DNA of 64,000 bases from Halosimplex rubrum (GTDB taxonomy: Archaea; Halobacteriota; Halobacteria; Halobacteriales; Haloarculaceae): contig NZ_CP058910.1 of the NCBI RefSeq assembly GCF_013415885.1, forward strand, positions 3,472,001 to 3,536,000, read 5' to 3'. How positions within the stretch are numbered: position 1 is the stretch's first letter; each line of letters opens with the position of its first letter. The position numbers and the translations under genes are program-made. The notes beneath the pieces are model-generated. The model was not told where the DNA came from, did not search any database, and saw only the letters and a list, made by a program, of their open reading frames with translations. Below, piece by piece: positions 35,576 to 55,047 of the stretch.

Positions 35576-35582
35576 ACCCGTG

Positions 35583-36614
35583 TCATCTCGTGTCCAGCAC
35601 CCCGTCGACCCGCGCCCCGAGCCCGTCGGCGATGGACTCCATCCCGGCGTCGCCCGGGTGGAGCAGGTCGGTGGTCAGTCCGTCGGCGGCCGATAGCGCG
35701 CGGCCGTCGACGACGGAGACGGTGCCCGACTCACACCCCGCCACGACCGATTCGAGCGCCTCGCGGTAGGCCCGCGCCCGTTCCCTGTCCTCGCTCTCGC
35801 GGAGGTCGGCGTGGTAGGGGAACAGCGTCGCGCAGACGACCGGTCGGTCGGGGTTCGCGCCCACCACCGTCTCGACGAGGTACTCGGCGCGCTCGCGGAA
35901 CTGTTCGACGGTGAACCCGCGGTTGGCCATGTTGACCGACAGGGCGAGCGTCGCCACGTCCCAGTCGTCTCGTTCGGCGATGTAGTCGGCGACCGCCGGC
36001 TCGCAGTAGGCCGCCCCCGACATCCCGAGGTTCACCGGGTCGAGGTCGAGCGCGCGGGCCACTCGCGAGACGTAGTTCAGGTGCGTCGCAGAGGCCGCCG
36101 CGCCCTCCGTGATCGAGGTACCGTAGGCCAGGTATCGACGGTCGGGCGTCTCGCCGTCCTCGGGCGGTCGACACTCGCCGGTCACGTCGTGGACGGCGAC
36201 GGGCGCCCAGGGTTCGAACCGGAGTCGGCAGACCCACGGGTCGAACGTGCCGGCGGCTTCGACCGCGGCGTCGGGGCGCAGGTCGGTCAGCGGCTCGGGG
36301 ACCGACAGCTCGAACTCCGCGGGTTCCGGACCGAGTTCCAGCGCGTCCTGACCCTGGAAGCTCCCCCAGAACGGGCGAACGACCGACTCCGCCGCCGCCG
36401 AGAGCGTCAGCCGAACGGTCTCGGTCCCTCGGGGGACGAACCGTATCTCGCTCCCCGCGGGGTGGCGTATCCGCTCGCGCGCGGCCACGTTCACGTTCGC
36501 GGCGACGTCGTTCGGGACGCGCCGGAGTTCGTCGCCGCCCTCAGTCCAGTCGGGGTCGGCCAGTTCGGCCACGTCGTGCAACCGCACCGACGGGTAGTCG
36601 TCTCCCGGAGACAT
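35583..36614 (-). CDS. SGNH/GDSL-family hydrolase
   Basis: 343 aa. The N-terminal half (about 1-165) is a beta-sandwich-like domain (ETVRLTLSAAAESVVRPFWG). The C-terminal half is an SGNH esterase-like fold. Block I reads YLAYGTSITEG, with Ser in place of the usual GDS serine context; block III is NLGMSGAAYCEP, followed by ALSVNMANRG. The catalytic Asp/His pair is in DLLHPGDAGM near the C-terminus. All blocks are recognisable, so a carbohydrate esterase or similar hydrolase is plausible. The ATG at 36614 (MSPGDDYP) is taken; the longer frame has non-conserved residues. It lies at the right edge of the AT-rich island. Confidence 0.8.
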   Translation of the reverse strand: MSPGDDYPSVRLHDVAELADPDWTEGGDELRRVPNDVAANVNVAARERIRHPAGSEIRFVPRGTETVRLTLSAAAESVVRPFWGSFQGQDALELGPEPAEFELSVPEPLTDLRPDAAVEAAGTFDPWVCRLRFEPWAPVAVHDVTGECRPPEDGETPDRRYLAYGTSITEGAAASATHLNYVSRVARALDLDPVNLGMSGAAYCEPAVADYIAERDDWDVATLALSVNMANRGFTVEQFRERAEYLVETVVGANPDRPVVCATLFPYHADLRESEDRERARAYREALESVVAGCESGTVSVVDGRALSAADGLTTDLLHPGDAGMESIADGLGARVDGVLDTR

Positions 36615-40443: not shown

Positions 40444-40459
40444 GTTGTCCTGCGACAAC
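40444..40459 (+). promoter_or_regulatory. Operator palindrome A, GTTGTC-N4-GACAAC
   Basis: Perfect inverted repeat with 6-bp arms and a 4-bp centre (CTGC), immediately before an AATTTAA TATA element at 40464-40470. Its centre is about 44 bp before the ATG at 40496. Same site type as 44770, 44807 and 48376. Confidence 0.75.
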
Positions 40460-40495
40460 GCGCAATTTAATCGATCGAAGGGGACAGGGGAACAC

Positions 40496-40690
40496 ATGGA
40501 CTCGATCCCGCTCTCGTGGCTCCCGCTGGTGGGGCTGCTCGCGGTCCCGTCGGCGCTGGCGTTCGCCCTCGGTCTCGAACCCGTCGCGGTGCTGGCGATA
40601 CTCAACACCGTCCTCATCGTGGTCGCCGTGCGGATCATGTTCGGCTCGACCGACGAGCAGTACTTGCCGGCTCGCCTGACCGGCGACTGA
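40496..40690 (+). CDS. Small two-helix membrane protein of the oxidase island
   Basis: 64 aa. Two hydrophobic segments (LPLVGLLAVPSALAFALGL and VAVLAILNTVLIVVAVRIMF) and a short polar tail (GSTDEQYLPARLTGD). The ATG at 40496 is 26 bp after a TATA-like element, so the transcript is probably leaderless. It overlaps the next gene by one base (TGATG). Position and size suggest an oxidase assembly factor of the CcoS kind or a tiny oxidase subunit (inference); sequence alone does not decide. Confidence 0.75.
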   Translation: MDSIPLSWLPLVGLLAVPSALAFALGLEPVAVLAILNTVLIVVAVRIMFGSTDEQYLPARLTGD

Positions 40691-41466
40691 TGGCGCCGCT
40701 CCAGGTCGCCGCGTCGGTCGGGGGTGAGGCTGGGCTCGCCGTCTTCGCGCTGGTCGGCCTGCTCGGCGGCGCCCACTGTCTGGGGATGTGCGGACCGCTC
40801 GTGACGCTGTACGCCGACCGACTGGGCGGGGACGGTCCGGCCGACTTCTCGGCGATCCGCCAGCACCTGCTGTTCAACCTCGGTCGGACGGCCAGTTACG
40901 CGCTGATCGGTGCGCTGATGGGTGCGCTGGGGACCGTGCTGTACGACGCCGCCGGAGTCACGGCCGTCGCCGACGACGTGCGTGCGGTCGCCGGCGTGCT
41001 CGTCGGCGGGTTCATCCTGCTGACCGGCGCGACGTACGCGCTCACCGGGTCGACTGCCGGCGCCCTCGGCCACGGCTGGACGCCCTCGGCGTTCGAGCGG
41101 GTGAGCGGTGCGCTGATGGCCCGCGTCGACCGCTGGGTCCACGGGCCGCGCATCGCGGCGCTGGGCGCCGTTCACGGGCTCCTCCCGTGCCCGCTCCTGT
41201 ACCCCGCGTTCCTCTACGCCTTCGCCACTGGGTCGCCCGCGTACGGCGCGCTCTCGCTCGCGACGCTGGGGCTGGCGACCGTCCCGGCGGTGTTCGCCTA
41301 CGGCGTCGCGTTCGGGTCCGTCTCGCCGCGGGTCCAGGGACCGTTGCACCGCGCGCTCGGCGTCGCCTTCCTCCTCATGGGGTATCTGCCGCTCGCGCAC
41401 GGCCTGATGCTACTGGGTATCCACCTGCCCCACCCACCGCTGCCCGCCTACCAGCCGCTGGGATGA
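40690..41466 (+). CDS. TauE/SafE-family membrane protein, cytochrome-oxidase assembly type
   Basis: 258 aa, about six transmembrane helices. The signature [18 protein letters not shown] (about 17-34) and [17 protein letters not shown] near residue 165 are typical of the "sulfite exporter TauE/SafE" proteins found beside copper ATPases and haem-copper oxidases, some of which act in copper import or oxidase maturation. HCxGMC and PCP are possible metal-contact residues. It starts within the stop of the upstream gene (TGATG) and overlaps the next start (ATGA), so the three genes are tightly coupled. Confidence 0.85.
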
Positions 41467-43793
41467 CCGTGACCGAGTGTACCCTCTGCGGGCTCCCGAC
41501 ACCCGACTCTCCCCACGCCGCCGACGACGTCGAGGGCGCGTTCTGCTGTCGCGGCTGTCTGGAGGTCGCGCGCACCCTCGACGGGGCGCCCGCCGAGGCC
41601 GACCCCGATGCGCTCGACGACGGCCCCGCGGTCGAGGAGGCCGACGGCGAGCGGGCCTACCTCGACGTGTCGGGGATGCACTGCGCCACCTGCGAGTCGT
41701 TCCTCGAAGCCACGGCGACCGACGCGACCGGCGTACGCGCGGCGGAAGCGAGCTACACCTCGGGGATGATGTGCGTCGTCTACGACGACGAGGTGACCGA
41801 CGAAGGGGCCGTCGCCGACGATGTCTCCGACTACGGCTACGAGGCGGCGCCGACTGGGAACGAAGCCGACGGCGACGACCAGGAGGCGGTCGGGCGCCTG
41901 CTGGTCGGCGGCTTCTTCGGGATGATGGTCATGGCGTGGTACGTCCTCTTCCTCTACCCCGTCTACCTCGGCGTCGCCCCCGACTCGCTGCTGGTCGACC
42001 TCGACGGGCCGGCCGGCGGGTTCCTCCTCGCGAACGTCTGGGCGATGGCGACGGTCGTCCTCGGGTACACGGGCGCGCCCCTGCTCCGGGGCGCCGCAGT
42101 GAGCCTGCGGGTTCGCGAGCCGAACATGGATCTGCTGGTCGCCGTCGCGGCGGTCACCGCCTACACCTACAGCACGCTCGCGATGACTCTGGGCCACACG
42201 GATCTCTACTTCGACGTGGCCGTCGTCGTCGTGCTGGCAGTGACCGTCGGCGACTACTATCGCGACCGCGTCCGCCGGCGTGCGACCGGACGGCTCTCGG
42301 AGGCCGCCGAGGAGCGGGTCGACACGGCGCGGCGCCGGACGCCCGAGGGGACCGAGTCCGTCTCGCGCGACGCGGTGGCGGGCGGGGACGAACTCGTCGT
42401 CCGCGGGGGCGAGCGCGTCCCCGTCGACGGCACCGTCGCCGAGGGCACCGCCGCCGTCGACGAGTCGCTCGTCACCGGCGAGTCCCTGCCCGTCTCGAAG
42501 GAACCCGGCGACGAGGTGGTCGGCGGGGCCACCGTCACCGACGGCGGTCTGGTGGTCCGCGCCGACCCGGACCCGACGAGCACCGCCGACCGGCTCGTCG
42601 AGACGCTCTGGGCCGTCCAGAGCGGATCGCCGGGCGCCCAGCGACTCGTCGACCGTATCGCCGCCGCGTTCGTCCCGCTGGTCTTCGTCCTTGCGGTCGG
42701 CACGACCGCCGTCCACCTCGCGCTGGGGGCCGCACCGACGGCCGCGCTGCTGACCGGGCTGACCGTCCTCGTCGTCTCCTGTCCCTGCGCGCTCGGGTTG
42801 GCCACGCCGATGGCCGTCGCGGCCGGCATCCGCGACGCTCTCGCGGCGGGCGTCGTCATCACCGACAGCTCGGCGCTGGAGACGGCCCCCGAGGTCGAGA
42901 CGGTCGCGTTCGACAAGACCGGGACGCTGACCACCGGGGCGATGACCGTCCGCGAGGTGGTCGGCGACGAGGAGACGCTCGCGCTCGCGGCCGCGGTCGA
43001 ACAGTTCGCCACCCACCCCGTCGCCGAGGCGATAGTCGCGGCCGGGACGCTCCCCGACGACCCTGTCACCGACTTCGAGACCCACCCCGGACGGGGAGTC
43101 GAGGCGACCGTCGGTGACCGGACGGTCCTCGTCGGCGACGCCGCGCTGTTCGACGAGCGCGACTGGCCGGTCCCGGAGGACGTGGCCCTCGCCTACGAGG
43201 ACGCGCCGGCCGACGCCGTCCCGAGTTACGTCGGCTGGGACGGCCGCGTCCGCGGCGCGGTCGTCGTCGGCGACGAGGTGCGCGACGACTGGGCGGCGGT
43301 CGTCGACGACCTGGCCGCCGACAGACGGGTGGTCGTGATCACCGGCGACGACCGGGCGGCCGCGCGGCGGTTCGAGACCCATTCGAACGTGGACGAGGTG
43401 TTCGCCGGCGTCCCGCCGGAGGCGAAGGCCGCGGTCGTCGACCGCCTCGCGGCCGATGGACCGGTCGCGATGGTCGGCGACGGGAGCAACGACGCGCCGG
43501 CGCTGGCCGCCGCCGACCTGGGGATCGCGATGGAACGCGGGACGCGCCTGGCCGTCGACGCCGCCGACGTGGTCGTCACCCGCGACTCGCTGGCCCCGCT
43601 CCCCGCCGCCTTCGCGACGACCGAGGGGACCCGCCGACGCGTCCGCGAGAACCTCGGCTGGGCGTTCCTGTACAACGCGGTCGCGCTCCCGCTGGCCGTC
43701 CTCGGCGTGCTCAACCCGCTCGTTGCCGCCGTCGCCATGGCGACCAGTAGCCTCCTCGTGGTTCTCAACTCGACGCGTCCGGTCGACGGCTAG
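41463..43793 (+). CDS. Copper-translocating P-type ATPase (CcoI/CopA-like)
   Basis: 776 aa. The N-terminus has a Cys-rich metal site (C6-x2-C9 and CC-x2-C at 28-32). A heavy-metal-associated domain with GMHCATC follows (about 74-80). Eight predicted membrane helices include [11 protein letters not shown], with the transport motif CPC at 440-442. The phosphorylated Asp484 is in DKTGTLT, the nucleotide-domain His in ATHPVAEAI, and the hinge is [12 protein letters not shown]. The extra N-terminal Cys box is characteristic of FixI/CcoI pumps that supply copper to respiratory oxidases. It overlaps the upstream gene and ends 4 bp inside the opposing rhodanese gene. Confidence 0.92.
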
Positions 43794-44683
43794 CCGTCCC
43801 GCTCGCCCGACCCGGGTCGGCCGGTCTCGACGGGGACGCCGACCAGATTGCCCCACTCGGTCCACGAACCGTCGTAGTTGCGGACCGAGGGATAGTCCAG
43901 CAGCTCGGAGAGGACGAACCACGTCAGTGACGAGCGCTCGCCGATGCGGCAGTAGACGACGACGCTCCGGTCGGGGGTGACGCCGCGGTCGCGGTAGAGC
44001 GCCGCGAGTTCGGCTCGCGATTTGAACCGGCCGTCGGGCGCGACGTTCACCGACCAGACGACGTTGACCGCGCCGGGGACGTGCCCGCCGCGCTGGGCGA
44101 ACTCGTCCATCCCGGGCGGTGCGACGACGGTCCCGTCGAACTCCTCGGGCAGTCGCACGTCGATCAGCGCCGTCCGGTCGTCGACCGCCCGCGCCACGTC
44201 GTCGCGGTACGCCCGGACGTGTTCGAAGGGGCCGGTCGGCTCGTACGTGCGGGCCGTGAACGACGGGACCTCGGTCGTTGTCGGTCGGTCCGACTCGACC
44301 CAGTGTTCGCGCCCGCCGTCGAGCAGGTACGCGTCGTCGTGGCCGTAGTAGGTCAACAGCCAGTAGAAGTGCGCGGCGAACCAGTTGGCGTTGTCGCCGT
44401 AGGCGACGACCGTCGTCCCTTCGGTGATACCGTGGTCGCCGAGGAGATCCGCGAACGCCCGCGCCGACGGCACGTCCCGCCGTCGGTCGTGTTGCAGGTC
44501 CGACCGCCAGTCGAGCCCGACCGCCCCCGGGAGGTGTCCCTCGTCGTAGAACCCGGTGTTCAGGTCCACCTCGACGAGTCGCAAGGACGGGTCGTCGGAT
44601 CGCGCCTCCGGCAGTCGCTCGGCGACCCACTCCGGGGAGACGAGCGCGTCCGACCGATCGGTTCGTGTCGTGCGTCCGGTCAT
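43790..44683 (-). CDS. Thiosulfate/3-mercaptopyruvate sulfurtransferase (two-domain rhodanese)
   Basis: 297 aa with two rhodanese domains. The first is inactive-like ([24 protein letters not shown]; Asp in place of the catalytic Cys). The second has the catalytic loop [14 protein letters not shown] (about residue 243), with [11 protein letters not shown] before it. It transfers sulfane sulfur to cyanide or another thiophile. Operator B sits before its TATA element, placing it in the oxidase regulon; a link to sulfide handling or to metal-sulfur site maturation is conceivable but unproven. Confidence 0.9.
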
Positions 44684-44769
44684 TGCTGTCGGGCGACCGC
44701 CGGGTGGTCCGCGCGCCAGCGGTCACGTGGTGTCCACTCCCGATGGACCTGCCGGGGATAAATACCGGC

Positions 44770-44783
44770 TTGTCCCGTGACAA
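44770..44783 (-). promoter_or_regulatory. Operator palindrome B, TTGTC-N4-GACAA
   Basis: TTGTC-CCGT-GACAA lies just upstream (on the minus strand) of the TATA-like GGTATTTATCC at about 44757-44767, in front of the rhodanese gene. The start codon is about 93 bp from the centre, so this gene has a real 5' leader, unlike the other three targets. Confidence 0.7.
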
Positions 44784-44806
44784 CCGCCGCCCGGGCCGCC
44801 CGCGGG

Positions 44807-44820
44807 TTGTCCTGCGACAA
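44807..44820 (+). promoter_or_regulatory. Operator palindrome C, TTGTC-N4-GACAA
   Basis: TTGTC-CTGC-GACAA shares its core with copy A. The centre is about 45 bp before the ATG of the oxidase operon at 44859, with GTTACAAC (TATA-like) between. Copies B and C lie 37 bp apart centre to centre in the divergent rhodanese/oxidase promoter region. Confidence 0.75.
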
Positions 44821-44858
44821 GACAGGTTACAACCGACCCGAGCCGAACGGCACCCAGT

Positions 44859-45239
44859 ATGAAGGGTCTTGAAGTCGGCACCGCGCTCGCGACCGGAACG
44901 GGGGACGGGTCGCTCCTGGCCGCGACAGCCGTGAGCGGGCTCGTCACCGTGCTCGCGGCGGGCGCCGTGTACTTTTACGGGTGGCGGACGCCGCCGGAAC
45001 CGTCGTTCGAGGGAGTGAGACGCGAAGAGCCCGCCGAGCCGGCGGTCGCCGGCGGTCGCGGCGGCCCGATGTACGAGTCCGAGGTGGCCGAGGCCGAGAC
45101 CGAATCGGTCGACCACGACGCGTTCGACCCGGTCGGGACGGCGGCGATTTTGGCCGTCTACTTCCTGGTCATCACGCTAACGTGGCTGTTCATGTACTTC
45201 GTGGAGTTCCTCGGGAACGGACCGACGGTGGTGGGCTGA
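44859..45239 (+). CDS. Small membrane subunit of ba3-type oxidase operon
   Basis: 126 aa. Two transmembrane helices (LLAATAVSGLVTVLAAGAVYFYGW, about 18-41 in part, and ILAVYFLVITLTWLFMYFVEF near the C-terminus) are separated by a charged loop. First gene of the oxidase operon; its stop is 1 bp before the subunit II start. Similar small proteins accompany ba3 oxidase genes in alkaliphilic haloarchaea, where they are called accessory cba subunits, but the sequence gives no catalytic hint. Confidence 0.8.
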   Translation: MKGLEVGTALATGTGDGSLLAATAVSGLVTVLAAGAVYFYGWRTPPEPSFEGVRREEPAEPAVAGGRGGPMYESEVAEAETESVDHDAFDPVGTAAILAVYFLVITLTWLFMYFVEFLGNGPTVVG

Positions 45240-45240
45240 G

Positions 45241-45759
45241 ATGCACGTCCACAGGTTCGAGCGGGTCTGGCTCGTCGCCGCGCTCGGCATGATCGTCCTG
45301 TTCGTCGGGACGGTCACCTACGGCGCCGTCGTCGCGGGCTACGGGATGGTCGACGCCGAGGGCGGCCAGGTCGACACGACGGATCCGGCCGCGAGCGAGG
45401 ACTTCCGCGAGCCGGGCGTCTACGAGGGGAGCGAACCCGGTCACTACGACGTGTACGTCGAGACGCGACGGTTCGCGTTCGTCCCCGGGACCGCCGATCC
45501 GATCCGGGTGCCGGCCAACAGCACCGTGACGTTCCACGTCGCCAGCGTCGACGTGCTCCACGGCTTCGAGGTCGCGGGCACGAACATCAACACGATGGCG
45601 ATCCCCGGCCAGAAGGCCGTCGTCACCGCCGAGTTCGACGAGCCCCGCGAGTACGGGCTCGTCTGTAACGAGTACTGCGGCGAGGGCCACCACGACATGG
45701 CCGGGACGCTCGAAGTGGTCCCCGAGCCGGAGTTCGACGCGAGCACGGAGGTGCAGTGA
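45241..45759 (+). CDS. ba3-type cytochrome oxidase subunit II (CuA)
   Basis: 172 aa. One N-terminal transmembrane helix (WLVAALGMIVLFVGTVTYG) anchors an outside cupredoxin domain. The CuA ligands are all present: His107 in VLHGFEV, then C142-N-E144-Y-C146-G-E-G-H150-H-D-M153. Spacing equals that of the ba3 subunit II of Thermus. It receives electrons from a halocyanin- or cytochrome-type donor and passes them to subunit I. The single-helix anchor is typical of the B-type oxidases. Confidence 0.95.
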   Translation: MHVHRFERVWLVAALGMIVLFVGTVTYGAVVAGYGMVDAEGGQVDTTDPAASEDFREPGVYEGSEPGHYDVYVETRRFAFVPGTADPIRVPANSTVTFHVASVDVLHGFEVAGTNINTMAIPGQKAVVTAEFDEPREYGLVCNEYCGEGHHDMAGTLEVVPEPEFDASTEVQ

Positions 45760-45761
45760 CG

Positions 45762-47546
45762 ATGGCCCACGCACACGACGAACGGACGGGCGAACCGACC
45801 GAACGGAGCGAACTGCCGACCGACGAGCGCCTCGCGTTCGTCGACGAGTACCCGTCGGCCGCACGGATCACCCGCCTCTGTTTCGGCGTCTCCTTCGGCG
45901 CCCTACTCGTCGGCGCACTACTGGGGATCGTCCAAGCGCTCCACCGGACCAACGTCTTCCGCGGCGTGATCGAGTCCAGTGACTACTACTCGGTGCTGAC
46001 CGGCCACGGCGTCCTGCTCGCGCTGTTTTTCACGATCTTCTTCCTCTCGGGCGCGTTCACCTGGGGGACGACTCGGAGCCTCGGCCGGGACCTCCCGAAC
46101 CCGCGGTTCTCGATGGCCTGGTTCGGTCTCCAACTCGGCGGCGCCGTCGCCGTCGCGACGGCCATCTTCGGCGGCTTCGTCGGCGAGATTCCCTTCGAGG
46201 CCGACGTGCTCTACACCTTCTACGCGCCGCTGCAGGCCCACCCGCTATTCTACGCGGGGCTGGCGGCGTGGCTCGTCGGCACCTGGCTCGCCGGCGCCGA
46301 CTGGATCCGCTCGTATCTGCGCTGGCGGAGCGACAACCCCGGCGAGCGCGTCCCGCTGCAGACGTTCATGGTCCTGACGACGATGCTGATGTGGTACGTC
46401 TCGACGGTCGGCGTCGCCGTCGAGGTGCTGGTCTTCCTGCTGCCGCTGTCGCTGGGGCTCATCGACGCCGTCGACCCGCTGCTCACCCGGACGCTGTTCT
46501 GGTACTTCGGCCACCCGGTCGTCTACTTCTGGCTGATGCCGGCCTACTTCGCGTGGTACACCATCCTGCCGAAACTCGCCGGCGGCCGGCTCTTCAGCGA
46601 CCCGCTCGCCAGAGTCGTGTTCGTCCTCTTCCTGATCCTCTCGACGCCCGTGGGCTTTCACCACCAGTACGCCGACCCCGGCATCGCGGAGGGCTTCAAG
46701 TTCGTCGCGATGACGAACACGATGTTCCTGCTGCTCCCGAGCTTCCTCACCGCCTTCACCGTCGTCGCGAGCATGGAGTACGGCGCCCGCCGGCGGGGCG
46801 GCAACGGCTACTTCGGGTGGATGAAGGCGCTCCCCTGGGCGAACCCGGCCTTCGCCGGGATGGCGCTCGCCGGGCTGATGTTCGCGGCGGGCGGCTTCTC
46901 CGGGATCGTCAACGCCGGGATGAACATCAACTCGCTGGTCCACAACACCCTCTGGGTGCCCGGCCACTTCCACCTCACCGTCGGCACCGCGAGCGCGCTG
47001 ACGATGATGGCGGTCAGCTACTGGCTGTACCCGCAGGTCACCGGCAAACGCCTCCAGCTGTACGGCCTCGCGCAGGTCCAGCCGTACGTCTGGTTCATCG
47101 GCATGGCGCTGATGTCCAACGCGATGCACCGCGCCGGCCTCGCGGGCGTCCCGCGGCGCACCGCCGAGCCCCAGTACGACCAGTTCACCTTCGAGGCGGC
47201 GCTGGGGTCGATCCCGGAGATGCGCCTGCAGATCGCCGTCGGCGGGACGCTGCTGACGCTCGGTGCGGTACTGTTCGCCGCGGTGATGCTCGCGACCTGG
47301 TTCGCCGACCGGGGACGCGGGCGCCTCCGGGTCGACAGCCACCTCCCGGAGCCGGTCTCCGGCCCCGAGGACGCCCCGCGCGTGCTCGACAACTTCAAAC
47401 TGTGGACGGCCGTCGCGGTCGTCCTCGTCGCCATCGCCTACGGATTCCCGGTCTTCTCGATGGTCGCCGACGGGCCGTTCGACCCCGCCGCGCCCCCCGT
47501 CCCCGTCGGCGTCGTCGACGCGGCCATCGGACTCCTCCCCGGCTGA
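45762..47546 (+). CDS. ba3-type cytochrome oxidase subunit I
   Basis: 594 aa with about 13 transmembrane helices. Reduces O2 to water and pumps protons. Haem b His82 is in LTGHGVLLALF. CuB ligand His251 is followed four residues on by Tyr255 (GHPVVYFW), the crosslinked pair of the catalytic site. CuB ligands His300 and His301 are in FHHQYADP, and haem ligands His402 and His404 in GHFHLTVG. These spacings match B-type oxidases. The ATG at 45762 starts 2 bp after the subunit II stop; a GTG two codons earlier is possible. Confidence 0.96.
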   Translation: MAHAHDERTGEPTERSELPTDERLAFVDEYPSAARITRLCFGVSFGALLVGALLGIVQALHRTNVFRGVIESSDYYSVLTGHGVLLALFFTIFFLSGAFTWGTTRSLGRDLPNPRFSMAWFGLQLGGAVAVATAIFGGFVGEIPFEADVLYTFYAPLQAHPLFYAGLAAWLVGTWLAGADWIRSYLRWRSDNPGERVPLQTFMVLTTMLMWYVSTVGVAVEVLVFLLPLSLGLIDAVDPLLTRTLFWYFGHPVVYFWLMPAYFAWYTILPKLAGGRLFSDPLARVVFVLFLILSTPVGFHHQYADPGIAEGFKFVAMTNTMFLLLPSFLTAFTVVASMEYGARRRGGNGYFGWMKALPWANPAFAGMALAGLMFAAGGFSGIVNAGMNINSLVHNTLWVPGHFHLTVGTASALTMMAVSYWLYPQVTGKRLQLYGLAQVQPYVWFIGMALMSNAMHRAGLAGVPRRTAEPQYDQFTFEAALGSIPEMRLQIAVGGTLLTLGAVLFAAVMLATWFADRGRGRLRVDSHLPEPVSGPEDAPRVLDNFKLWTAVAVVLVAIAYGFPVFSMVADGPFDPAAPPVPVGVVDAAIGLLPG

Positions 47547-47555
47547 CCCATCGAG

Positions 47556-48272
47556 TCACGTTCCGGAGAGGAAGCTCGCCACGAGCGCCGCTTCGGCGCG
47601 CCTGAGCCGGTAGGAGACGGTCGAGCGCGGGCAGTCCAGTTCGGCAGCGAGGTCGTCGAGCGTCGTTTCCCGCGGCGTCTCGTAGTACCCCCGCTCGGCG
47701 GCCAGTTCGAGCACCCGCCGCTGTTCGGGCCGCAGCGACAGCGACGCGAACGGGTTCGACGGGGGCTCGGTCGCCTCCTCTAGGTGGTCGAACCGGAAGG
47801 CGATCCCCTCCCTGAGCGTCCCGCCGAGCGTGTCGTAGAGCATCCCGACCTTCTCGTCGCTCTCGGTGAGGACTCGCCAACGCTCCTCGGACTCGCGGCG
47901 GGTCACCGACGCGAGGACGCCGCCGGAGAGGTAGCGCCTGGCGATCAGCGAGACGGCGTCGCAGCGGGTCGCGTCGGAGACGCGCGTGTACACCACGGCC
48001 CGCCGCGCCGACGCCGAGAGCACGTCGCTGTGTCGACGCCCGGCGCAGCCGCGGTCGCTGACCGACAGCAGGTCCCGCTCCTCGTCGGCGACCAGCGCCG
48101 CCGCCCGCTCGACCGTCTGCGGGGGGCCGGTGACCGTGTCGAGCCGCCAGACCTCCGACTCGGAGACCGGACAGACCAGCGCCGTCGACCCCGCCTCCGG
48201 CGCCGCCGCGAGGGCGTCCATCAGCGGGTCTACACCCGTCTCGTAGGTCAGCGTGAAGGCGAACTCCCGCAT
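47556..48272 (-). CDS. HTH_10 (Bat/NarO/DmsR-type) transcriptional regulator
   Basis: 238 aa. The C-terminal helix-turn-helix is LRPEQRRVLELAAERGYYET with TTLDDLAAELDCPRSTVSYR and LRRAEAALVASFL, the HTH_10 pattern of haloarchaeal activators. The N-terminal 170 residues form a sensory domain with Cys in ALVCPVSE, RGCAGRRH and TRCDAV that could bind metal, haem or an Fe-S cluster. Relatives NarO and DmsR control anaerobic respiration genes. It lies between oxidase subunit I (convergent) and a divergent operator-bearing gene, and is the prime candidate to bind the TTGTC-N4-GACAA sites (inference). Confidence 0.85.
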   Translation of the reverse strand: MREFAFTLTYETGVDPLMDALAAAPEAGSTALVCPVSESEVWRLDTVTGPPQTVERAAALVADEERDLLSVSDRGCAGRRHSDVLSASARRAVVYTRVSDATRCDAVSLIARRYLSGGVLASVTRRESEERWRVLTESDEKVGMLYDTLGGTLREGIAFRFDHLEEATEPPSNPFASLSLRPEQRRVLELAAERGYYETPRETTLDDLAAELDCPRSTVSYRLRRAEAALVASFLSGT

Positions 48273-48374
48273 CTACCCCGAACTCGTTCGGCCAGTAGCC
48301 AGTCAGTTTCGGTCGCGGCGGCGACCGGCCGACGCTGTCGCGTCCGCGTCGCCGTCGGCCGACTGACCGCTGTC

Positions 48375-48390
48375 GTTGTCGTGTGACAAC
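48375..48390 (+). promoter_or_regulatory. Operator palindrome D, GTTGTC-N4-GACAAC
   Basis: GTTGTC-GTGT-GACAAC, perfect 6-bp arms. The centre is about 43.5 bp before the ATG of the 41-aa membrane protein at 48426 and lies in the divergent region of the HTH_10 regulator, so it could also mediate autoregulation. Confidence 0.75.
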
Positions 48391-48425
48391 GGTGGGTTGA
48401 GGGGACCGCCGAGAGTACTGGGTGT

Positions 48426-48551
48426 ATGAGCGACACGCCCGCAACCGAACAGTCGATGCCGTGGTTCCTGAAGGCGGTCATCCTCGTCGCGGTTCTCGTC
48501 GTCCTCTTCATCGTCGCCGTGGATCTCCTGACCTTCGCGCAGTCGCTCTGA
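48426..48551 (+). CDS. 41-aa single-helix membrane protein under operator D
   Basis: A polar N-terminus (MSDTPATEQSMPWFLK) is followed by one strongly hydrophobic helix (AVILVAVLVVLFIVAVDLL) and a short tail (TFAQSL). Haem-copper oxidases often have such one-helix subunits. The perfect operator at the same distance as before the oxidase operon, and the clean helix, argue that this tiny frame is a gene. It could be a ba3 accessory subunit encoded apart from the main operon. Confidence 0.65.
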   Translation: MSDTPATEQSMPWFLKAVILVAVLVVLFIVAVDLLTFAQSL

Positions 48552-48579
48552 GCGCGGGCGGCACCCGCCCGGGCCCGGC

Positions 48580-49230
48580 TCAGACCACCTCCAGAACGGC
48601 GAGCGACAGGGCGATCTGGCCGAGGCCGGCGACGATCATCAGTACGGCCGCCGCCCGTTCGAGCGCGCCGGCGTACCGGCCGAGCGACCGCCAGGCGTCG
48701 ACGCCCGCGCTCGCGAGCAGCGTCACCCCGACCAGCGGCGCCGTGGCCCCGATCGCGTATGCGGCCAGGACCGCCGCCGCGCCGGGCGCCGGGAACGCGA
48801 GCGCCTGTGCGACCACGCCGAGCAAGACCGGAACCACGCAGCCGGCGGCCGCGAGCGCGTACGCGCCGCCGAACAGACCGAACCCGACGACCGAGCCGGG
48901 ACGGCCCGGCAGCGCGACGGTCGCCGGCCGCCGGTCCAGCAGCGTCGCCCCGCCGAACGCGACCAGCGCGACGCCTACCAGCGGCTCGAACGCCGGCAGG
49001 AGCGAGGTGATCCGTCGGCCGACTGCGTAGGCCGCCCCCGCGAGGACGACGAGCGCGCCGAGCGACCCGGCGGCGGCCGCCGCGGCGGCGGCGCCCGCCG
49101 AGTCGTCGCCGCCGCGTTCGAGGAAGTAGCCGACGTACCCCGGCAGCAACGGGAACGCGCAGGGCGCGAAGAACGTCGCGACGCCGGCGCCGACCGCGAA
49201 CGCCACCGCACCGCTCAGCGGCCCGATCAC
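48580..49230 (-). CDS. ccdA: CcdA/DsbD-like thiol-disulfide membrane transporter
   Basis: 216 aa, about six transmembrane helices. The redox cysteines are in FFAPCAFPLLPGYVGYF (about residue 23) and AAAGCVVPVLLG (about 125), each beside prolines as in CcdA. It carries reducing power across the membrane to a thioredoxin-like partner. The start is a GTG at 49230 overlapping the TlpA-like stop (GTGA), so coupling is tight. It is the last gene of the run beginning with nosL. Confidence 0.9.
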   Translation of the reverse strand: MIGPLSGAVAFAVGAGVATFFAPCAFPLLPGYVGYFLERGGDDSAGAAAAAAAAGSLGALVVLAGAAYAVGRRITSLLPAFEPLVGVALVAFGGATLLDRRPATVALPGRPGSVVGFGLFGGAYALAAAGCVVPVLLGVVAQALAFPAPGAAAVLAAYAIGATAPLVGVTLLASAGVDAWRSLGRYAGALERAAAVLMIVAGLGQIALSLAVLEVV

Positions 49231-49754
49231 CCCTCCAGCACCGCCTCGAACGCCGACCGCAGCCGCTCGCCCGACGCGAGCCCCGAGTGTCGCCACTGAA
49301 CCGCACCGTCCGCGTCTACCAGCGCCAGGTACGGGAGCCCGTCGGCGCCCACGGCCGACATGACCGAGCTCTCGGGGTCGACGGCGACGGGCCAGTCCCC
49401 GTCGCGGCGCGCCCACCAGTCGGCGATGTCCGCCTCGGCGAGGCCGCCGCCGACGCGCTCGCTGGTCACGGACGCGAAGGCGATCGCGCCCTCGAACTCC
49501 GGATACAGCGCCGTCAACACCTCCATCTGCCGGTCACAGGGGGCGCACCACGTCGCGAAGCAGTCGACGAGCGTCGGCCGGTCCGGACGGGGGACCCGGA
49601 GCGGACCGTCCTCGGATCCCGGCGCGTCGATCCCCTCGACGCGGACCGGAAACCCGTCGCTGTCGGCGAACGGGGCGTCGCTCTGCAGGATCAGGGCGCT
49701 CCCGCCGGTGAGTCCCGCGCCCGCGATGGCCGCGAGCGCCCGACGCCGATTCAT
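49227..49754 (-). CDS. TlpA/ResA-like secreted thioredoxin
   Basis: 175 aa. The N-terminus MNRRRALAAIAGAGLTGGSA is a twin-arginine-type signal or anchor. The thioredoxin fold has the active site FATWCAPCDRQ (Cys70 and Cys73) and the cis-Pro loop DGLPYLALVD. It probably keeps the cysteines of the SCO protein or of the CuA site reduced so copper can be inserted, with electrons supplied by the adjacent CcdA. It overlaps both neighbours by 4 bp. Confidence 0.9.
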   Translation of the reverse strand: MNRRRALAAIAGAGLTGGSALILQSDAPFADSDGFPVRVEGIDAPGSEDGPLRVPRPDRPTLVDCFATWCAPCDRQMEVLTALYPEFEGAIAFASVTSERVGGGLAEADIADWWARRDGDWPVAVDPESSVMSAVGADGLPYLALVDADGAVQWRHSGLASGERLRSAFEAVLEG

Positions 49755-50434
49755 GCCTCTCGCACCGCCGCGAGGTCGTCGATCAGCCGGTCGCTATCGG
49801 GAGATTTCGTCCGGTACGCCCGCTCGACGTAGCCGTCGGCGTTGACGAGCGTCGTCATCGGGGTGTGGGTGAACATGTAGCCGTCCATCTCCGGCGCCGC
49901 GGTCCGTTCGAACGCGACGCCGAACGCCTCGGCGACGACCCGCTCGGCCCGCTCGGCGGAGGTCGGACGGAGGAACTGCCAGTTGCCCGCCCCGAGCGCG
50001 ACGTTCCGTTCCCCGGCGTACGTCCGGAGGCGGTCGGCGTCGTCGCGAGCGGGGTCAAACGTCACCGGGTAGAACCGCGCCGCGTCGCCGTAGCCCCGGT
50101 TCAGCGCGTGCGTCTGGACGTTCCGGAGCGTCCCGACGAGCACGGGACAGACCGTCCTGCAGTGACTGTAGAAGAACGTCAGCAGCGCCGGCCGGCCGAC
50201 CCCGCGGAGTCGGACCTCCCCCTCGGCGTGGACGGCCGGGAGGGTCACGTCGGGGACCCGCTCGCCCCACGCGGGGTACGGCAGGTCCGCGCTCTCGAAC
50301 TGGCGGTCCGGTTCGGGCAGGACCACGTCGGGGTTCCCGCCGCCCGCACAGCCCGCGACTCCCCCGACCACCGCGGTCGACAGCCCGGCGAGGTACTCGC
50401 GTCGGTTCACGGATCGACGGGAGGAGCGGGACAC
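49751..50434 (-). CDS. SCO1/SenC-family copper chaperone (Tat lipoprotein)
   Basis: About 227 aa. NRREYLAGLSTAVVGGVAGC is a twin-arginine signal with lipobox Cys29. The copper ligands of SCO proteins are present: CxxxC in FFYSHCRTVCPVLV (Cys92, Cys96) and the distal His in YMFTHTPMTTL. It delivers copper to CuA of oxidase subunit II. A GTG at 50434 is chosen; GTG at 50410 is an alternative. It overlaps the TlpA-like gene by 4 bp and follows nosY after about 70 bp. Confidence 0.92.
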   Translation of the reverse strand: MSRSSRRSVNRREYLAGLSTAVVGGVAGCAGGGNPDVVLPEPDRQFESADLPYPAWGERVPDVTLPAVHAEGEVRLRGVGRPALLTFFYSHCRTVCPVLVGTLRNVQTHALNRGYGDAARFYPVTFDPARDDADRLRTYAGERNVALGAGNWQFLRPTSAERAERVVAEAFGVAFERTAAPEMDGYMFTHTPMTTLVNADGYVERAYRTKSPDSDRLIDDLAAVREA

Positions 50435-50505
50435 CAATCAATGGGATGTTGTAGTCCTCCAACGGCGGCACAATACCGGGCGGAGAGCGACCCCTCCCGA
50501 CCGGG

Positions 50506-51417
50506 TCACCGCCCGCCCGACGACCACGCGCCCAGCGTGGCGACGGCGAGGCCGACCGCGAGCCAGCCGGCGAGACCGACGACGCTGGCGGCGACGTTCG
50601 CGGCGGGCGGGCCGGTCGAGACGACCCCGCCGGTGGCCGTCGACAGGACCAGCCCGCGGAACGCGCCGGTGGGGCTCAACCCGAGCGCGACGCCGAGCGC
50701 GTCGGCGCCGACGAACCCCTCCGCGAGGCCGAGAATCACCAGCGCGTCGACGCCGACGACGGCCGCGAGCGCGACGACGGCGGCGGCCGCGACGGCGGCG
50801 CGCCGCGAGCGGGCGAGCGACGAGACGGCCATCGCGAGCGCGAGCGCGACCAGCGCGTAGGCGGCCGTCAGCGCGACGAACCGCGCGAGGTAGACCGGCG
50901 AGTCGACCGTGGCGTGGGAGACGAACACGGCCGTCGACGGCTCCCGGACGATCGGGACCGAGACGGCGAGCAGCAGGAGCGGCGCGAGAACCGCGGCGAG
51001 CAGCCCCACCGCCCGGCCGAGGAACGTCCCGAGGACGTACGTCGAGCGATCGACCGGGAAGGTCCGGATCGCGTCGAGTTCCCCGCTGGCCGCGTCCGCG
51101 AGGACGCTCCAGGTCCCGAACCCGAAAGCGACCAGCGGGACGAGGACCTCGACCGGCGTCGACAGGTCGAGCACGAGCGGGAGGTAGCCCCCGACTCCGC
51201 CGGCGAGCGGGAGCGCGACGACGACGAGTCCGTAGACGGCGGCCAGCGCGAGGTACGCGCGCGTCCGGACGACGGTGTCGAACGCCCGCTGGGCGACCGC
51301 CCGGAGCGCCCGTAGCCGGTCGCGGACCGTTCGGTCGCCCGCGTCCCCGCCGACGGCCGCCGCCGGCGACGAGCCGTCGGTCGCCGGGCGGTTCCCGACT
51401 TTCGACTCCTCACTCAT
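50506..51417 (-). CDS. nosY: NosY-like ABC transporter permease
   Basis: 303 aa. A soluble N-terminal tail is followed by six transmembrane helices (for example AYLALAAVYGLVVVALPLAG, LAAVLAPLLLLAVSVPIV, ALVILGLAEGFVG). FPVDRSTYVLGTFLGRA is the family's coupling region. NosY with NosF forms a membrane ATPase that works with NosD in maturing copper sites. It overlaps nosF by 8 bp. Confidence 0.88.
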   Translation of the reverse strand: MSEESKVGNRPATDGSSPAAAVGGDAGDRTVRDRLRALRAVAQRAFDTVVRTRAYLALAAVYGLVVVALPLAGGVGGYLPLVLDLSTPVEVLVPLVAFGFGTWSVLADAASGELDAIRTFPVDRSTYVLGTFLGRAVGLLAAVLAPLLLLAVSVPIVREPSTAVFVSHATVDSPVYLARFVALTAAYALVALALAMAVSSLARSRRAAVAAAAVVALAAVVGVDALVILGLAEGFVGADALGVALGLSPTGAFRGLVLSTATGGVVSTGPPAANVAASVVGLAGWLAVGLAVATLGAWSSGGR

Positions 51418-52303
51418 CGGTCCCCTCCCAGGTCCCGGCGCGGACGGTCAGGTCGCCGTCCTCGCCGTGGATGTACTGGTTGACCGCGTGGGTGAGCGTC
51501 TCGGAGCCGGTCTCCCGGCGCAGCTCGTCGGGCGGGGCCGCGACCTGGATCGCCCCGTCGTCGAGGACGAGCACGGTGTCGCCGACGCGGTCGACGGTAC
51601 CCAGCTCGTGGGTCGCGAGCAGGACCGTCCGGCCCTCGTCGGCCAGCCCTCGGACGACCGAGCCCACGTGCTCGGTCATCGTCGGGTCGAGGCCGCTGGA
51701 GGGCTCGTCGAGGACGAGCACCGGCGGGTCGCCGACCGTCGCCACCGCGATGCCGAACAGGCGGGTCATGCCGCCGGACAGCGCCCCGACGCGGCGGTCG
51801 GCGACCGCTTCGAGGCCGACCCGCTCCAGCACCGCCGCCGGCTCCGCGTCGACTCCGGCGAGGTCGCCGTAGAACGCCAGCGTCTCGGCGAGCGTGAACT
51901 GCGGGCGAAAGGCCGGCGTCTGGGCCAGGTACCCGACCGCCCGGTCGCCGCCGGCCGGGAGCGAGACGGACCCGGCGTCCGGCGCGAGCAGACCGGCCAC
52001 CACGCGCAACAGCGTGGTCTTCCCGGAGCCGTTCGGACCGACCAGGCAGGCGACCGTCCCGCGCTGGGCGGCGAACGACACCGACGAGAGGACGCTCACG
52101 TCGCCGAACGACCGGGCGACGCCGTCGACGACGAGCGCCTCGTCGGCCCCGTCGGGGTCGCCCGCTTCCTCGACCGGTTCGTCGCCGTCCGCCTCCCGGT
52201 CGACCGGCGCGTCGGAGTCGCCGTCGTCCTCTCCGGGGGCTCGTTCGGTCGTCCCGTCGCCGCTCGATACCGTCTCCGTCGTCGGCCGGTCTCTGTCAGT
52301 CAT
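51410..52303 (-). CDS. nosF: NosF-like ABC transporter ATPase
   Basis: 297 aa. An acidic halophilic N-terminal extension of about 55 residues precedes the ATPase. Walker A is LVGPNGSGKTTLLRV, the signature GALSGGMTRLFGIA, Walker B PPVLVLDEPSSGLDP, and the switch His is in LLATHELG. Partner of nosY (8-bp overlap) and nosD (8-bp overlap). With NosY it should power a step in copper or sulfur supply to a copper enzyme outside the membrane. Confidence 0.9.
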   Translation of the reverse strand: MTDRDRPTTETVSSGDGTTERAPGEDDGDSDAPVDREADGDEPVEEAGDPDGADEALVVDGVARSFGDVSVLSSVSFAAQRGTVACLVGPNGSGKTTLLRVVAGLLAPDAGSVSLPAGGDRAVGYLAQTPAFRPQFTLAETLAFYGDLAGVDAEPAAVLERVGLEAVADRRVGALSGGMTRLFGIAVATVGDPPVLVLDEPSSGLDPTMTEHVGSVVRGLADEGRTVLLATHELGTVDRVGDTVLVLDDGAIQVAAPPDELRRETGSETLTHAVNQYIHGEDGDLTVRAGTWEGTDE

Positions 52304-54188
52304 GCGTTCCGTTTCGCACCTCCCGCAGTCGGTCCGGGCGGACGGGGTCGGTCCGCGGCGCGGTGTCGACGGCGCCGCCCCCGCGGAGGCCGGGCACGCT
52401 CCCGGCGACCGTCCGGAACAGGCCCAACGCCGGCGCCCGCGAGAGCGTCGGCCCCCCCGGAGCGCGACTGGCGACCACGTCGACGCGCCCCGTCGGGCGG
52501 AAGGGCCTGTCGACGGCCCCGTCGCGGTCGCGGTCGAGCCCCGGGACCGGTCCCCAGTAGTTGCCGCGGCCGTCGACCGTCCAGACGTGGACGGGACCGC
52601 CCGACGCCACCGCCGGCCGCTCGTTGCCGACCACGTCGTTGCCGACCACGTCGTTGGTCGGCAGCAGCGTCACCCCGCGGAACCCGATCCGGTTGTCCGC
52701 GACGGTGTTGTTCGTCACCAGCGAACGCGTGGACCCGAGGTTGAACCCGATCCGGTTGTCCGCCACCACGTTGTCGGCGAACAGCGACGCGTCGCCGACG
52801 GCGAGGATCCCCGCCCGGTTGTCGACCGCGCGGTTGTCCACGACGGCGTTGTTCGCCGGCCGGGTCATGAGGACGACCGCGCCCTCCGTCTCGCGGATCG
52901 TGTTGTTCGCCACGAGCAGGTCCGACGTGTACATCTCGTGGACGCCGTAGCGGCCGCCGACCATGCGGTTGTCACGGATCACGCTGCCGCGGGCGCGGTG
53001 GGTGTAGACGCCGTCGCGGCCGCCGCGGGTCTCCGTGTCCTCGACGACGACGCGCGACGAGATGGGCAACACCCCCATCGACCCCTCGGCGATGGTGTCC
53101 GCCCCCCGGACCGTGAGGTTCCGGACGACCGAGCGGTCGCTGTGGCGGAGAGTGACGCCCGTCGACGCGGTGTCGACGCGCACGTCGGCGACGAGCGACT
53201 CGTTGGACCCGACGAACGCGACCCCCGCGTCGCTCCGGGCGTAGACGAGGGTGGTCGCGAGGGGGCCGGTAGCGTCCTCCGGCGGCGAGCGGGACCCGAC
53301 GGACCCGACGCCGGCGATCGACAGCGACGTGACCGCGACCCGGTCGGCGTCGACCCGCAGGACGGTGCCGTTCCCGCCGCCGTCGAGGACCGTCTCCGGT
53401 CCCGAGCCGCGGATCGTCACCGGCTTCTCGACGGTCAGGTTCGGGTCGTAGCGGCCCGGCGGCAGTCGAACCGTCGTGTTCGGCGGGGCGGCCGCGACGG
53501 CGGCCGACAGGTCGGGGGCGTCCTCACCGACGACGACCGAGACCGGCCGCTGGCGGAGCGCGCGCCGCGCCGCGACGGTGCGGTCGGCCCACGCCGAGCG
53601 GTTCCGGACCGACTCGCGGAACGACGCCTCGGTCGCGCGACCGGCCGAGTCGACGGCCTCGGGGAGCGCGTCCCACGACACCGGCCGACCGCCGTACTCG
53701 TCGGCGAACGCGCGGGCGTCCGAGCGGTCGGAGAACGGGACCGCGGTGGGGCCGGCCGACGTTCGCGCGCCGCTGTCGACGACGTAGACCGCGCCGTCGG
53801 CCCGCACCCAGCCGACGGCGGGGTCGGTGCTCACGTCGAGATGGCCGCCGTCGACGAGCGAGGGACCGGCTCCGGAGAAGTCGGTCACGAAGACGGCGAG
53901 CGGGTCGCCGAACTGGCGGCGGGCCGTCCCGCTCGAAAGCTGCGAGACGAGCGACTCGACGCCGTAGTAGCCGACGACGTACTCGTACTGGCCGTAGAAG
54001 ACCTGCGCCCGCGGGATGTCGTAGCCGCGAGCCTCGGCGGTCCGCACGTCGACGCCGGTCATCCCCATCCGCAGCGTCTCCCCGAAGTCGACCGGTCGCA
54101 CCTCGCCGCCGCCGGTCCCGACCAGGAACCCGGCGGCGCCGACCAGCACGACCGCGAGCACGACAGCCCCGGCGATCCGTGCGTCCAT
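52296..54188 (-). CDS. nosD: NosD-like right-handed beta-helix protein with N-terminal NosL-like domain
   Basis: 630 aa. An N-terminal signal/anchor helix (residues 5-25) is followed by a domain (about 35-175) that aligns with NosL encoded next door: VFVTDFSG against FYVTDYSE, and ARAFADEYGG against AEAFADEHGG. The CxxCGM copper motif of NosL is missing. From about 215 the CASH/NosD repeats form a beta-helix with many N-N and N-x-I/V turns (NNTIRETEGAVVLM, DNRIGFNLGSTRS). NosD is the extracytoplasmic partner of NosFY. The NosL-NosD fusion is unusual. The gene starts 2 bp after the nosL stop. Confidence 0.88.
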   Translation of the reverse strand: MDARIAGAVVLAVVLVGAAGFLVGTGGGEVRPVDFGETLRMGMTGVDVRTAEARGYDIPRAQVFYGQYEYVVGYYGVESLVSQLSSGTARRQFGDPLAVFVTDFSGAGPSLVDGGHLDVSTDPAVGWVRADGAVYVVDSGARTSAGPTAVPFSDRSDARAFADEYGGRPVSWDALPEAVDSAGRATEASFRESVRNRSAWADRTVAARRALRQRPVSVVVGEDAPDLSAAVAAAPPNTTVRLPPGRYDPNLTVEKPVTIRGSGPETVLDGGGNGTVLRVDADRVAVTSLSIAGVGSVGSRSPPEDATGPLATTLVYARSDAGVAFVGSNESLVADVRVDTASTGVTLRHSDRSVVRNLTVRGADTIAEGSMGVLPISSRVVVEDTETRGGRDGVYTHRARGSVIRDNRMVGGRYGVHEMYTSDLLVANNTIRETEGAVVLMTRPANNAVVDNRAVDNRAGILAVGDASLFADNVVADNRIGFNLGSTRSLVTNNTVADNRIGFRGVTLLPTNDVVGNDVVGNERPAVASGGPVHVWTVDGRGNYWGPVPGLDRDRDGAVDRPFRPTGRVDVVASRAPGGPTLSRAPALGLFRTVAGSVPGLRGGGAVDTAPRTDPVRPDRLREVRNGTHD

Positions 54189-54190
54189 CG

Positions 54191-54850
54191 TCAGGCCCGG
54201 CCGAGCTGTGCGATGGTCTCGGGGGTCACGTCACCCAACGCGGCGAGCGATCCGCCGTGCTCGTCGGCGAAGGCCTCGGCGTCGCTCCCCTCCGAGAAGG
54301 CGATCAGGTCTCTGCCCATCGCCCCCTTGACCTCGGATCCGACGACGAAGGTGACCGACTCGGCGTCGGCGAACGCCCCCGCATCCGGGTGGGTGGAGAC
54401 GACCGAGTCCCCGCCCTCCTCGGTGACCGAGTAGTCGACTTCGGAGTAGTCGGTGACGTAGAACGCCTCGCGGTCCCACCCCCGGTCGTTGCGCTCGAAG
54501 TCGTACTGGAACGCCTCCCAGGTGCTGTCGAACCGCGCCGGGTCGTCGTGGCCCGACGGTCGGTTGTCCGCGTAGAATATCTCGGCGCTCGGGCCCGGAT
54601 GGTTCGGGATCACCATCCCGCACACGTCACACCGATCCTCGGTCGTCAGGTCGACGGGTTCGGGCGCGTCGCCCGAGTCGGAACTCCCACAGCCCGCGAG
54701 CGCCGCGAGCGCCGCCGCACCGCTGACGAGCAGCGGCCGGCGGCGGACCGAATCGACCGCGGCCGTCTCACCCCGATCCGTCTCCCGCCCGTCGCGGGCC
54801 TCCGGTCCGCGGGCACGCTCCTCTCCCGTCCGATGAGTGTGTCGGCACAT
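54191..54850 (-). CDS. nosL: NosL-like copper-binding lipoprotein
   Basis: 219 aa. SVRRRPLLVSGAAALAALAGC is a twin-arginine signal with lipobox Cys54; the first 30 residues are hydrophilic. The copper site CDVCGM (74-79) is intact, with FYVTDYS (about 130) and the C-terminal AFADEHGG (about 193-200) typical of NosL. It is the first gene of the seven-gene run leading to CcdA. An AT-rich TATA-like AGATTGATATTTC at 54938-54950 lies about 90 bp upstream, so a leader or a non-ATG start (TTG 54910) is possible. Confidence 0.9.
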   Translation of the reverse strand: MCRHTHRTGEERARGPEARDGRETDRGETAAVDSVRRRPLLVSGAAALAALAGCGSSDSGDAPEPVDLTTEDRCDVCGMVIPNHPGPSAEIFYADNRPSGHDDPARFDSTWEAFQYDFERNDRGWDREAFYVTDYSEVDYSVTEEGGDSVVSTHPDAGAFADAESVTFVVGSEVKGAMGRDLIAFSEGSDAEAFADEHGGSLAALGDVTPETIAQLGRA

Positions 54851-55047
54851 ACGTGGCTTCGACCGGCTTCCGTTCGGACGTTCGTCCCGGCGGCGGTTAA
54901 CACCTCCCAAGTCCGCCCGCGACCGAGAATCGGAGATAGATTGATATTTCTCGAGGATCCCAATACCACGATGTCTCGACGGTCCCGTTGCGGCGGTCGC
55001 CGGCCGGGACCGGGGCGCTTAATCGGTTCAAACGCGTAGGGCGGGCG

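Follow-up and report, generated by a model that had tools for sequence, protein, structure and literature searches.

A palindromic operator that tracks an HVO_2928_N+HTH_10 regulator in haloarchaea, and its proposed role in a response to sulfide

Bacterial sulfide-responsive regulons are known, with ArsR-type repressors such as SqrR. E. coli bd oxidases are insensitive to sulfide (PMC4815019), a ba3 oxidase has been proposed as the sulfide-insensitive oxidase of Methylacidiphilum, where it is induced together with SQR (PMC10205796), and a related ba3 oxidase of Aquifex occurs in a supercomplex with SQR, as cited in PMC10205796. Here we describe a palindrome, TTGTC-N4-GACAA, in a 64,000-nt stretch of the Halosimplex rubrum genome (the window; the complete genome comprises 4.48 Mb in a single contig), where it stands at the promoters of a ba3-type oxidase locus, next to the gene of an HVO_2928_N+HTH_10 protein. 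On balance, the evidence favors the view that the palindrome is the operator of this neighboring protein and that the system is a haloarchaeal response to sulfide or sulfane sulfur.

Like the systems of SqrR, BigR, YgaV, and other bacterial regulators responsive to sulfide or persulfide, this one has palindromes as putative operators of SQR, rhodanese, and sulfur genes, and perhaps also a cysteine pair in the regulator. However, the three named regulators are ArsR-type repressors, whereas here the candidate is an archaeal HVO_2928_N+HTH_10 protein, the operator lies upstream of the TATA element, and terminal oxidases dominate the targets. With E. coli and Methylacidiphilum it shares the pairing of SQR with bd or ba3 oxidases (PMC4815019, PMC10205796), but neither a common operator nor a regulator of this kind is described there, and here the ba3 oxidase has its own copper pump in the putative regulon. 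Canonical haloarchaeal ba3 loci contain the same oxidase subunits (CbaA 61–68% identical) and usually the same copper genes (SafE, CopA), but no regulator, operator, or rhodanese adjoins them, their CbaD matches over a shorter part, and their copper genes are divergent. The haloarchaeal denitrification motif CGAAYATDKTYG of NarO is likewise a semi-palindrome common to respiratory promoters, but it differs in sequence and genes and lies farther, 66–79 bp, from the start codon (PMC10062603). A NarO-type operator was rejected by sequence, the sites in the window being TTGTC-N4-GACAA.

An exact pattern search found four copies of the palindrome in the window, and allowing one mismatch added none. 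The expectation by chance is 0.04 (shuffle mean), and four copies were reached in 0 of 100 shuffles. The copies and the regulator gene are as follows.

40445..40458: operator copy 1, exact; promoter of the copper-pump operon; TTTAAT before the ATG at 40496
44770..44783: operator copy 2, exact; faces the rhodanese promoter; centre 93 bp from the rhodanese ATG
44807..44820: operator copy 3, exact; cbaDBA promoter; TTACAA before the ATG at 44859
48376..48389: operator copy 4, exact; ahead of a 41-amino-acid (aa) membrane open reading frame (ORF), ATG at 48426
47556..48272, minus strand: regulator, HVO_2928_N + HTH_10 (PF24281, E 6e-53; PF04967, E 1.6e-14)

Four promoters are served in the window, namely, those of the copper-pump operon, the rhodanese, cbaDBA, and the 41-aa membrane ORF. 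The distance from the site centre to the ATG is 44.5 bp for copy 1, 45.5 bp for copy 3, and 43.5 bp for copy 4, and in all three a TATA-like element separates the site from the start codon; copy 2 is immediately followed by TATTTAT on the minus strand. An earlier note on this DNA had named the same four positions and no others, had placed three copies 43–46 bp before a start codon on the promoter side of TATA, and had proposed an operator common to several promoters and tied to the adjacent HTH_10 protein; all of this stood up. A scan of the complete genome, which the note had suggested, yielded only five exact copies (the reversed-pattern control yielded four), with a positional bias relative to starts, and four of the five fall within 8 kb. 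The fifth (L001) lies within a coding ORF for a helix-turn-helix (HTH) protein (...SEVAEQLDCHRTTAHNRLSKLE...), and the relaxed motif TTGKC-N4-GMCAA adds one site in the host genome, beyond the island.

Across genomes, the palindrome tracks the HVO_2928_N+HTH_10 regulator and not the ba3 oxidase. For this comparison, four close loci were obtained from relatives of the oxidase, and the remaining loci came from genome searches and a plasmid collection. Sites stand at the cba promoter of 12 ba3 loci with the regulator, one of them being the locus in the window. The others come from Halomicrobium katesii (L011), Haloarcula rara (L012), Haloarcula sp. LUM.49 (L013), and H. salina (L014); from genomes G059, G103, G125, and G091 (L045-L048); and from plasmids found in Haloarcula sp. 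GH36, H. halophila, H. sinaiiensis, and H. mukohataei (L105-L107, L109), where L109 and L046 are one replicon and are counted once. The sites keep their positions in the close relatives, and that of copy 1 is found in L011, L012, L105, and others. By contrast, none of the 20 haloarchaeal ba3 loci without the regulator (L050-L054, L056-L064, L087, L100-L104) has a site at its promoters; L087 contains one exact palindrome, 3.5 kb outside the oxidase genes. In Halobaculum marinum (L110), where ba3 and a regulator homologue (45%) are about 8 kb apart, the sites belong to NosL and a small ORF instead of ba3. Regulator homologues of 41–44% in other families, mostly paired with a rhodanese, are accompanied by TTGTC/TTGGC-N4-GACAA and by no ba3 gene.

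Ten genomes that encode a regulator homologue contain 28 exact copies, of which 21 lie within about 12 kb of the regulator, where 0.18 are expected, a descriptive count, given that the genomes and the size of this interval were chosen after the data had been seen. Among 146 genomes of the order, the palindrome is rare, with 0 to 5 copies, usually no more than in the reversed control. Twelve isolated palindromes in other genomes were set aside as background-like, with neither the regulator nor sulfur genes close by. The plasmid records, chosen by the regulator sequence alone, serve as a hold-out: an exact site is present in 7 of 8, the exception being L108 with one-mismatch sites only; this count omits L109, already seen as G103. 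Operator-linked regulators group together in a tree built from 44 homologues, with 2 label changes vs. 14.2 in shuffles.

The promoter geometry is fixed as well. Among 84 distinct TTGKC-N4-GMCAA sites near regulator homologues, 62 have an ORF with an ATG 36–52 bp downstream, and the spacing has its mode at 44 bp (30 sites); as a background, 8.7% of random positions have an ATG at 40–48 bp. At +17 bp from the centre, A or T is present in 50 of the 50 sites with an ATG at 43–46 bp (A in 44), and therefore the position of TATA is fixed. The +17 position is mostly preceded by T, and positions +10/+11 are A-rich, resembling the transcription factor B recognition element (BRE), with A at +34 (50 sites). 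The operator and its geometry are well supported, and the pattern resembles that of a leaderless promoter of haloarchaea whose operator lies directly upstream of BRE/TATA. This spot is usual for archaeal activators. In Halobacterium, Bat, which also has an HTH_10 domain, activates bop from a site just upstream of TATA. Bat is not known to have an HVO_2928_N domain, and its site and signal differ from those considered here.

Both domain matches of the regulator are above the cut-off, which places it among the HVO_2928_N+HTH_10 proteins; it has no ArsR match and hence no SqrR/ArsR-type fold by that measure. An AlphaFold model (5 sequences, pLDDT 76) was uninformative, with 5m86 as the best fold match (E 1.6e-3, TM 0.39). 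Across the homologues, Cys76 is present in 42/44 and Cys104 in 40/44, paralogues without the operator included. As proof of sulfide sensing these cysteines were rejected, being family-wide and present also in the operator-less paralogues. In the L031 and L039 regulators, Cys76 is replaced by Arg and Cys104 by Ala, yet the rhodanese neighbor and a near-consensus site are retained. A separate clade of the family adjoins cydAB without this palindrome (L083:6997-10389, L040, L042, L044) and may control cytochrome bd via another site.

The signal is suggested by the company that the regulator and the operator keep. Their usual companion is a rhodanese, and elsewhere genes for SQR, TusA, DsrE, a persulfide-dioxygenase-like protein, and cytochrome bd are found, which is why we propose sulfide or sulfane sulfur. 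The fetched stretch includes sulfur-detoxification genes at 23 of 29 operator-regulator loci, compared with 1/20 canonical ba3, 1/9 paralogue-regulator, and 0/12 isolated-palindrome control loci, although the query genes were drawn from the operator-regulator group, which favors the count of that group. Sulfur-detoxification genes also occur in all three regulator-rhodanese loci lacking a site. The operator is common to sulfide-oxidizing and sulfane-sulfur genes, namely, the rhodanese of the window, SQR in L065 (first ATG 40 bp and second ATG 112 bp downstream of the site; human SQR in the PDB, E 5e-55), and a TusA-SQR-DUF1641 operon in Halobaculum halobium, with a near-consensus site (L112 4244) 58 bp before TusA (SQR, E 1.5e-43). 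For cytochrome bd, exact sites are located between cydA and a divergent 60-aa ORF in L012, L106, and L107, and one-mismatch sites are present in L065, L108, and L112. A heme-copper oxidase subunit I lies 44–45 bp downstream of a site that is exact in L112 and has one mismatch in L071. NosL begins 44 bp behind an exact site in L110 and a one-mismatch site in L112, and a ferritin-like protein lies 45 bp from a site in L106. YeiH-family proteins (PF03601) follow tandem sites 16–17 bp apart in L066, L072, and L085, and sites with variant arms in L067 and L075.

SBP56 is 51 bp from a site in L111 and L113. On these Natronorubrum plasmids (L111:12441-14719, L113:8441-10720), a regulator homologue is divergent from SBP56 of the methanethiol-oxidase type, with an exact palindrome between the two; in N. 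bangense the regulator gene is annotated merely as a fragment. The tandem operator pairs (L066:11245-11275, L072:11571-11600, L085:3944-3974) adjoin regulator and rhodanese genes, and a pyridine-nucleotide disulfide reductase-rhodanese fusion (L106:6618-8285) is encoded inside the ba3/bd plasmid island of Haloarcula halophila.

Sulfane sulfur and a terminal oxidase that presumably survives sulfide are what these targets have in common, and we therefore propose the regulator as a sensor of sulfide or persulfide. Taken together, the conserved regulator and the palindrome at its fixed spot suggest a previously unrecognized switch that keeps respiration going when sulfide blocks the normal oxidase. 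We infer that the HTH_10 protein binds the site and activates, that its ligand is sulfide or persulfide, and that this ba3 oxidase tolerates sulfide. In such a mechanism, rising sulfide or its persulfide products would change the state of the regulator, probably via thiol chemistry at Cys76 and Cys104, and a regulator dimer would occupy TTGTC-N4-GACAA directly upstream of BRE/TATA and recruit the basal machinery at largely leaderless promoters. The ccoS-SafE-CopA operon would be switched on to supply copper, cbaDBA would yield an accessory ba3 oxidase expected to work while sulfide blocks the normal heme-copper oxidase, the rhodanese would handle sulfane sulfur, and the 41-aa membrane protein would also be made. 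In relatives, the same operator stands ahead of other genes: those of cytochrome bd, of SQR or a TusA-SQR operon, of a further heme-copper oxidase, of NosL, or of YeiH. Cytochrome bd is absent from the host genome, and the ba3 oxidase would therefore have to fill the backup role alone here.

Several observations weigh against a sulfide response. The SQR-like gene at 942 kb in the host genome has no site, so that the rhodanese is the sole sulfur gene under the operator there; Cys76 and Cys104, being family-wide, do not point to sulfide in particular; no recognizable site accompanies the three regulator-rhodanese loci L068-L070; in L012, L106, and L107 the bd site also serves a divergent small ORF; at the Halomicrobium loci, where operator and regulator are both present, the fetched stretch contains no sulfur gene; and a rhodanese together with bd would fit cyanide as well.

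As to the direction of control, the regulator might instead block its promoters until sulfide releases it, as SqrR does. Bacterial persulfide sensors such as SqrR are repressors, and palindromes often serve repressors, but the fixed distance of the site upstream of BRE/TATA, and not over BRE/TATA or the start, is the usual place of an archaeal activator, and we regard repression as unlikely, though a serious candidate. More doubtful is switching by oxygen or copper, which the earlier note had thought probable: the regulator would sense low oxygen or copper and induce a high-affinity copper oxidase along with its copper supply. The copper-pump operon does sit under the operator, ba3 and bd oxidases are high-affinity enzymes, and HTH_10 is the Bat-type DNA-binding domain. 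However, the operator is missing from the promoters of the 20 ordinary ba3 loci, almost all of which have the same copper pump; several genomes combine operator and regulator with a rhodanese and YeiH and have no oxidase or copper gene; bd oxidase contains no copper; and the SQR and TusA-SQR targets would be left unexplained. A response to cyanide or nitric oxide (NO), in which the rhodanese would convert cyanide and bd or ba3 would respire while the main oxidase is blocked, appears less probable again: a rhodanese and bd oxidase form a cyanide-tolerance pair, NosLDFY is present in some loci, and cyanide mimics sulfide in E. coli respiration (PMC4815019), but the neighbors SQR, TusA, DsrE, MBL-rhodanese, and SBP56 handle sulfur, not cyanide or NO. 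Finally, it is very improbable that the palindrome belongs to another, unlinked regulator and that the HTH_10 gene is a mere neighbor: binding of the site by the HTH_10 protein is something that we infer, the three site-less rhodanese loci would fit, and the nearest window site is 110 bp from the regulator ATG, but the sites track the regulator clade across several haloarchaeal families, even without ba3, and exact sites turned up in 7 of the 8 plasmid loci picked by the regulator alone.

The island comprises 16 ORFs from 40496 to 54910, not the fourteen genes counted earlier, a list from which the rhodanese was missing. In addition to the regulator, these are the following.

40496..40690, plus strand: CcoS-like membrane protein, 64 aa; an ORF in conserved order, named by position and context similarity
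40690..41466, plus strand: SafE/TauE-like membrane protein (Pfam DsbD_2, PF13386, E 1.4e-48)
41463..43793, plus strand: copper-type P1B ATPase (TIGR01511 above cut-off, HMA domain)
43790..44683, minus strand: two-domain rhodanese of the thiosulfate sulfurtransferase type (PF00581 in two stretches)
44859..45239, plus strand: CbaD-like small oxidase subunit with an N-terminal extension; adjoins cbaB in all ba3 loci
45241..45759, plus strand: ba3 oxidase subunit II, CuA (PF00116, COX2 domain; TIGR02866 partial)
45756..47546, plus strand: ba3 oxidase subunit I (PF00115; residues 30-566 match Thermus ba3, E about 1e-118)
48426..48551, plus strand: 41-aa single-helix membrane ORF behind operator copy 4
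48580..50437, minus strand: CcdA-like protein (probable start 49230), TlpA, and SCO (PF02630, PF08534), a block for copper-site assembly; no operator
50506..54910, minus strand: NosY, NosF, NosD, and NosL (PF12679, PF00005, PF05048, PF05573); no operator here

The 64-aa CcoS-like protein has no Pfam match. The rhodanese has a CRIGER loop that fits the CRxGxR active-site pattern and matches PDB 1uar over residues 12-288 (E 9.9e-86). The match of subunit I to Thermus ba3 and the adjacent CuA subunit II assign the oxidase to the ba3 type (B family). CbaD has 126 aa here and up to about 170 in relatives; its extra N-terminal part is specific to operator-linked oxidases, and canonical loci match only the C-terminal helix region.

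Copy 4 has to be placed differently from the earlier account: it lies 43.5 bp before the 41-aa ORF on the plus strand, with the regulator ATG (48272) 110 bp away on the opposite side. Counterparts of this ORF, 47–78% identical, stand behind the same operator in L011-L014, L045, L046, and others. A single-helix ORF of 40–41 aa is the most constant operator-linked gene in Haloarculaceae loci, even without ba3 (L049), and it is possible that the protein is a small oxidase subunit.

The idea of a single 14-gene regulon was only partly right. Several promoters do share the operator, but no copy, even with two mismatches, was found in the examined regions upstream of the SCO/TlpA/CcdA and NosLDFY blocks (48580-54910). 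The CcdA-like assignment comes from context and from an annotated relative in L105, and the NosL start is probably internal to the ORF. Because a search of the genome with a single NosZ model gave no match above the cut-off, the NosLDFY cluster may function in the assembly of CuA in oxidases and not for nitrous oxide reductase. NosLDFY also neighbors oxidase genes, of the ba3 or bd type, in L014, L101, L105, L110, and L112, sometimes with the palindrome upstream. Elsewhere in the window, the G+C content of 34001-36000 is 0.557, vs. 0.65–0.75 across the rest; this stretch is perhaps a recent insertion.

In the literature searched, which did not extend to most subscription journals, we found no description of this operator or of a haloarchaeal sulfide-responsive regulon of this type. 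The chances are evenly poised that these proteins are an undescribed family of archaeal sulfide/persulfide sensors, with one portable operator uniting interchangeable sulfide-tolerant oxidases (ba3, bd, and a further heme-copper oxidase) and sulfide-clearing enzymes in a single regulon on haloarchaeal chromosomes and plasmids. If so, the system would be an archaeal counterpart, built from unrelated parts, to bacterial sulfide-tolerance circuits, and it would offer an operator with fixed promoter geometry that is directly testable in culturable strains. It would also assign a function to a regulator clade whose only annotation is 'helix-turn-helix domain-containing protein', and it would account for the second ba3 oxidase, often plasmid-borne, that some haloarchaea have in addition to the ordinary enzyme.

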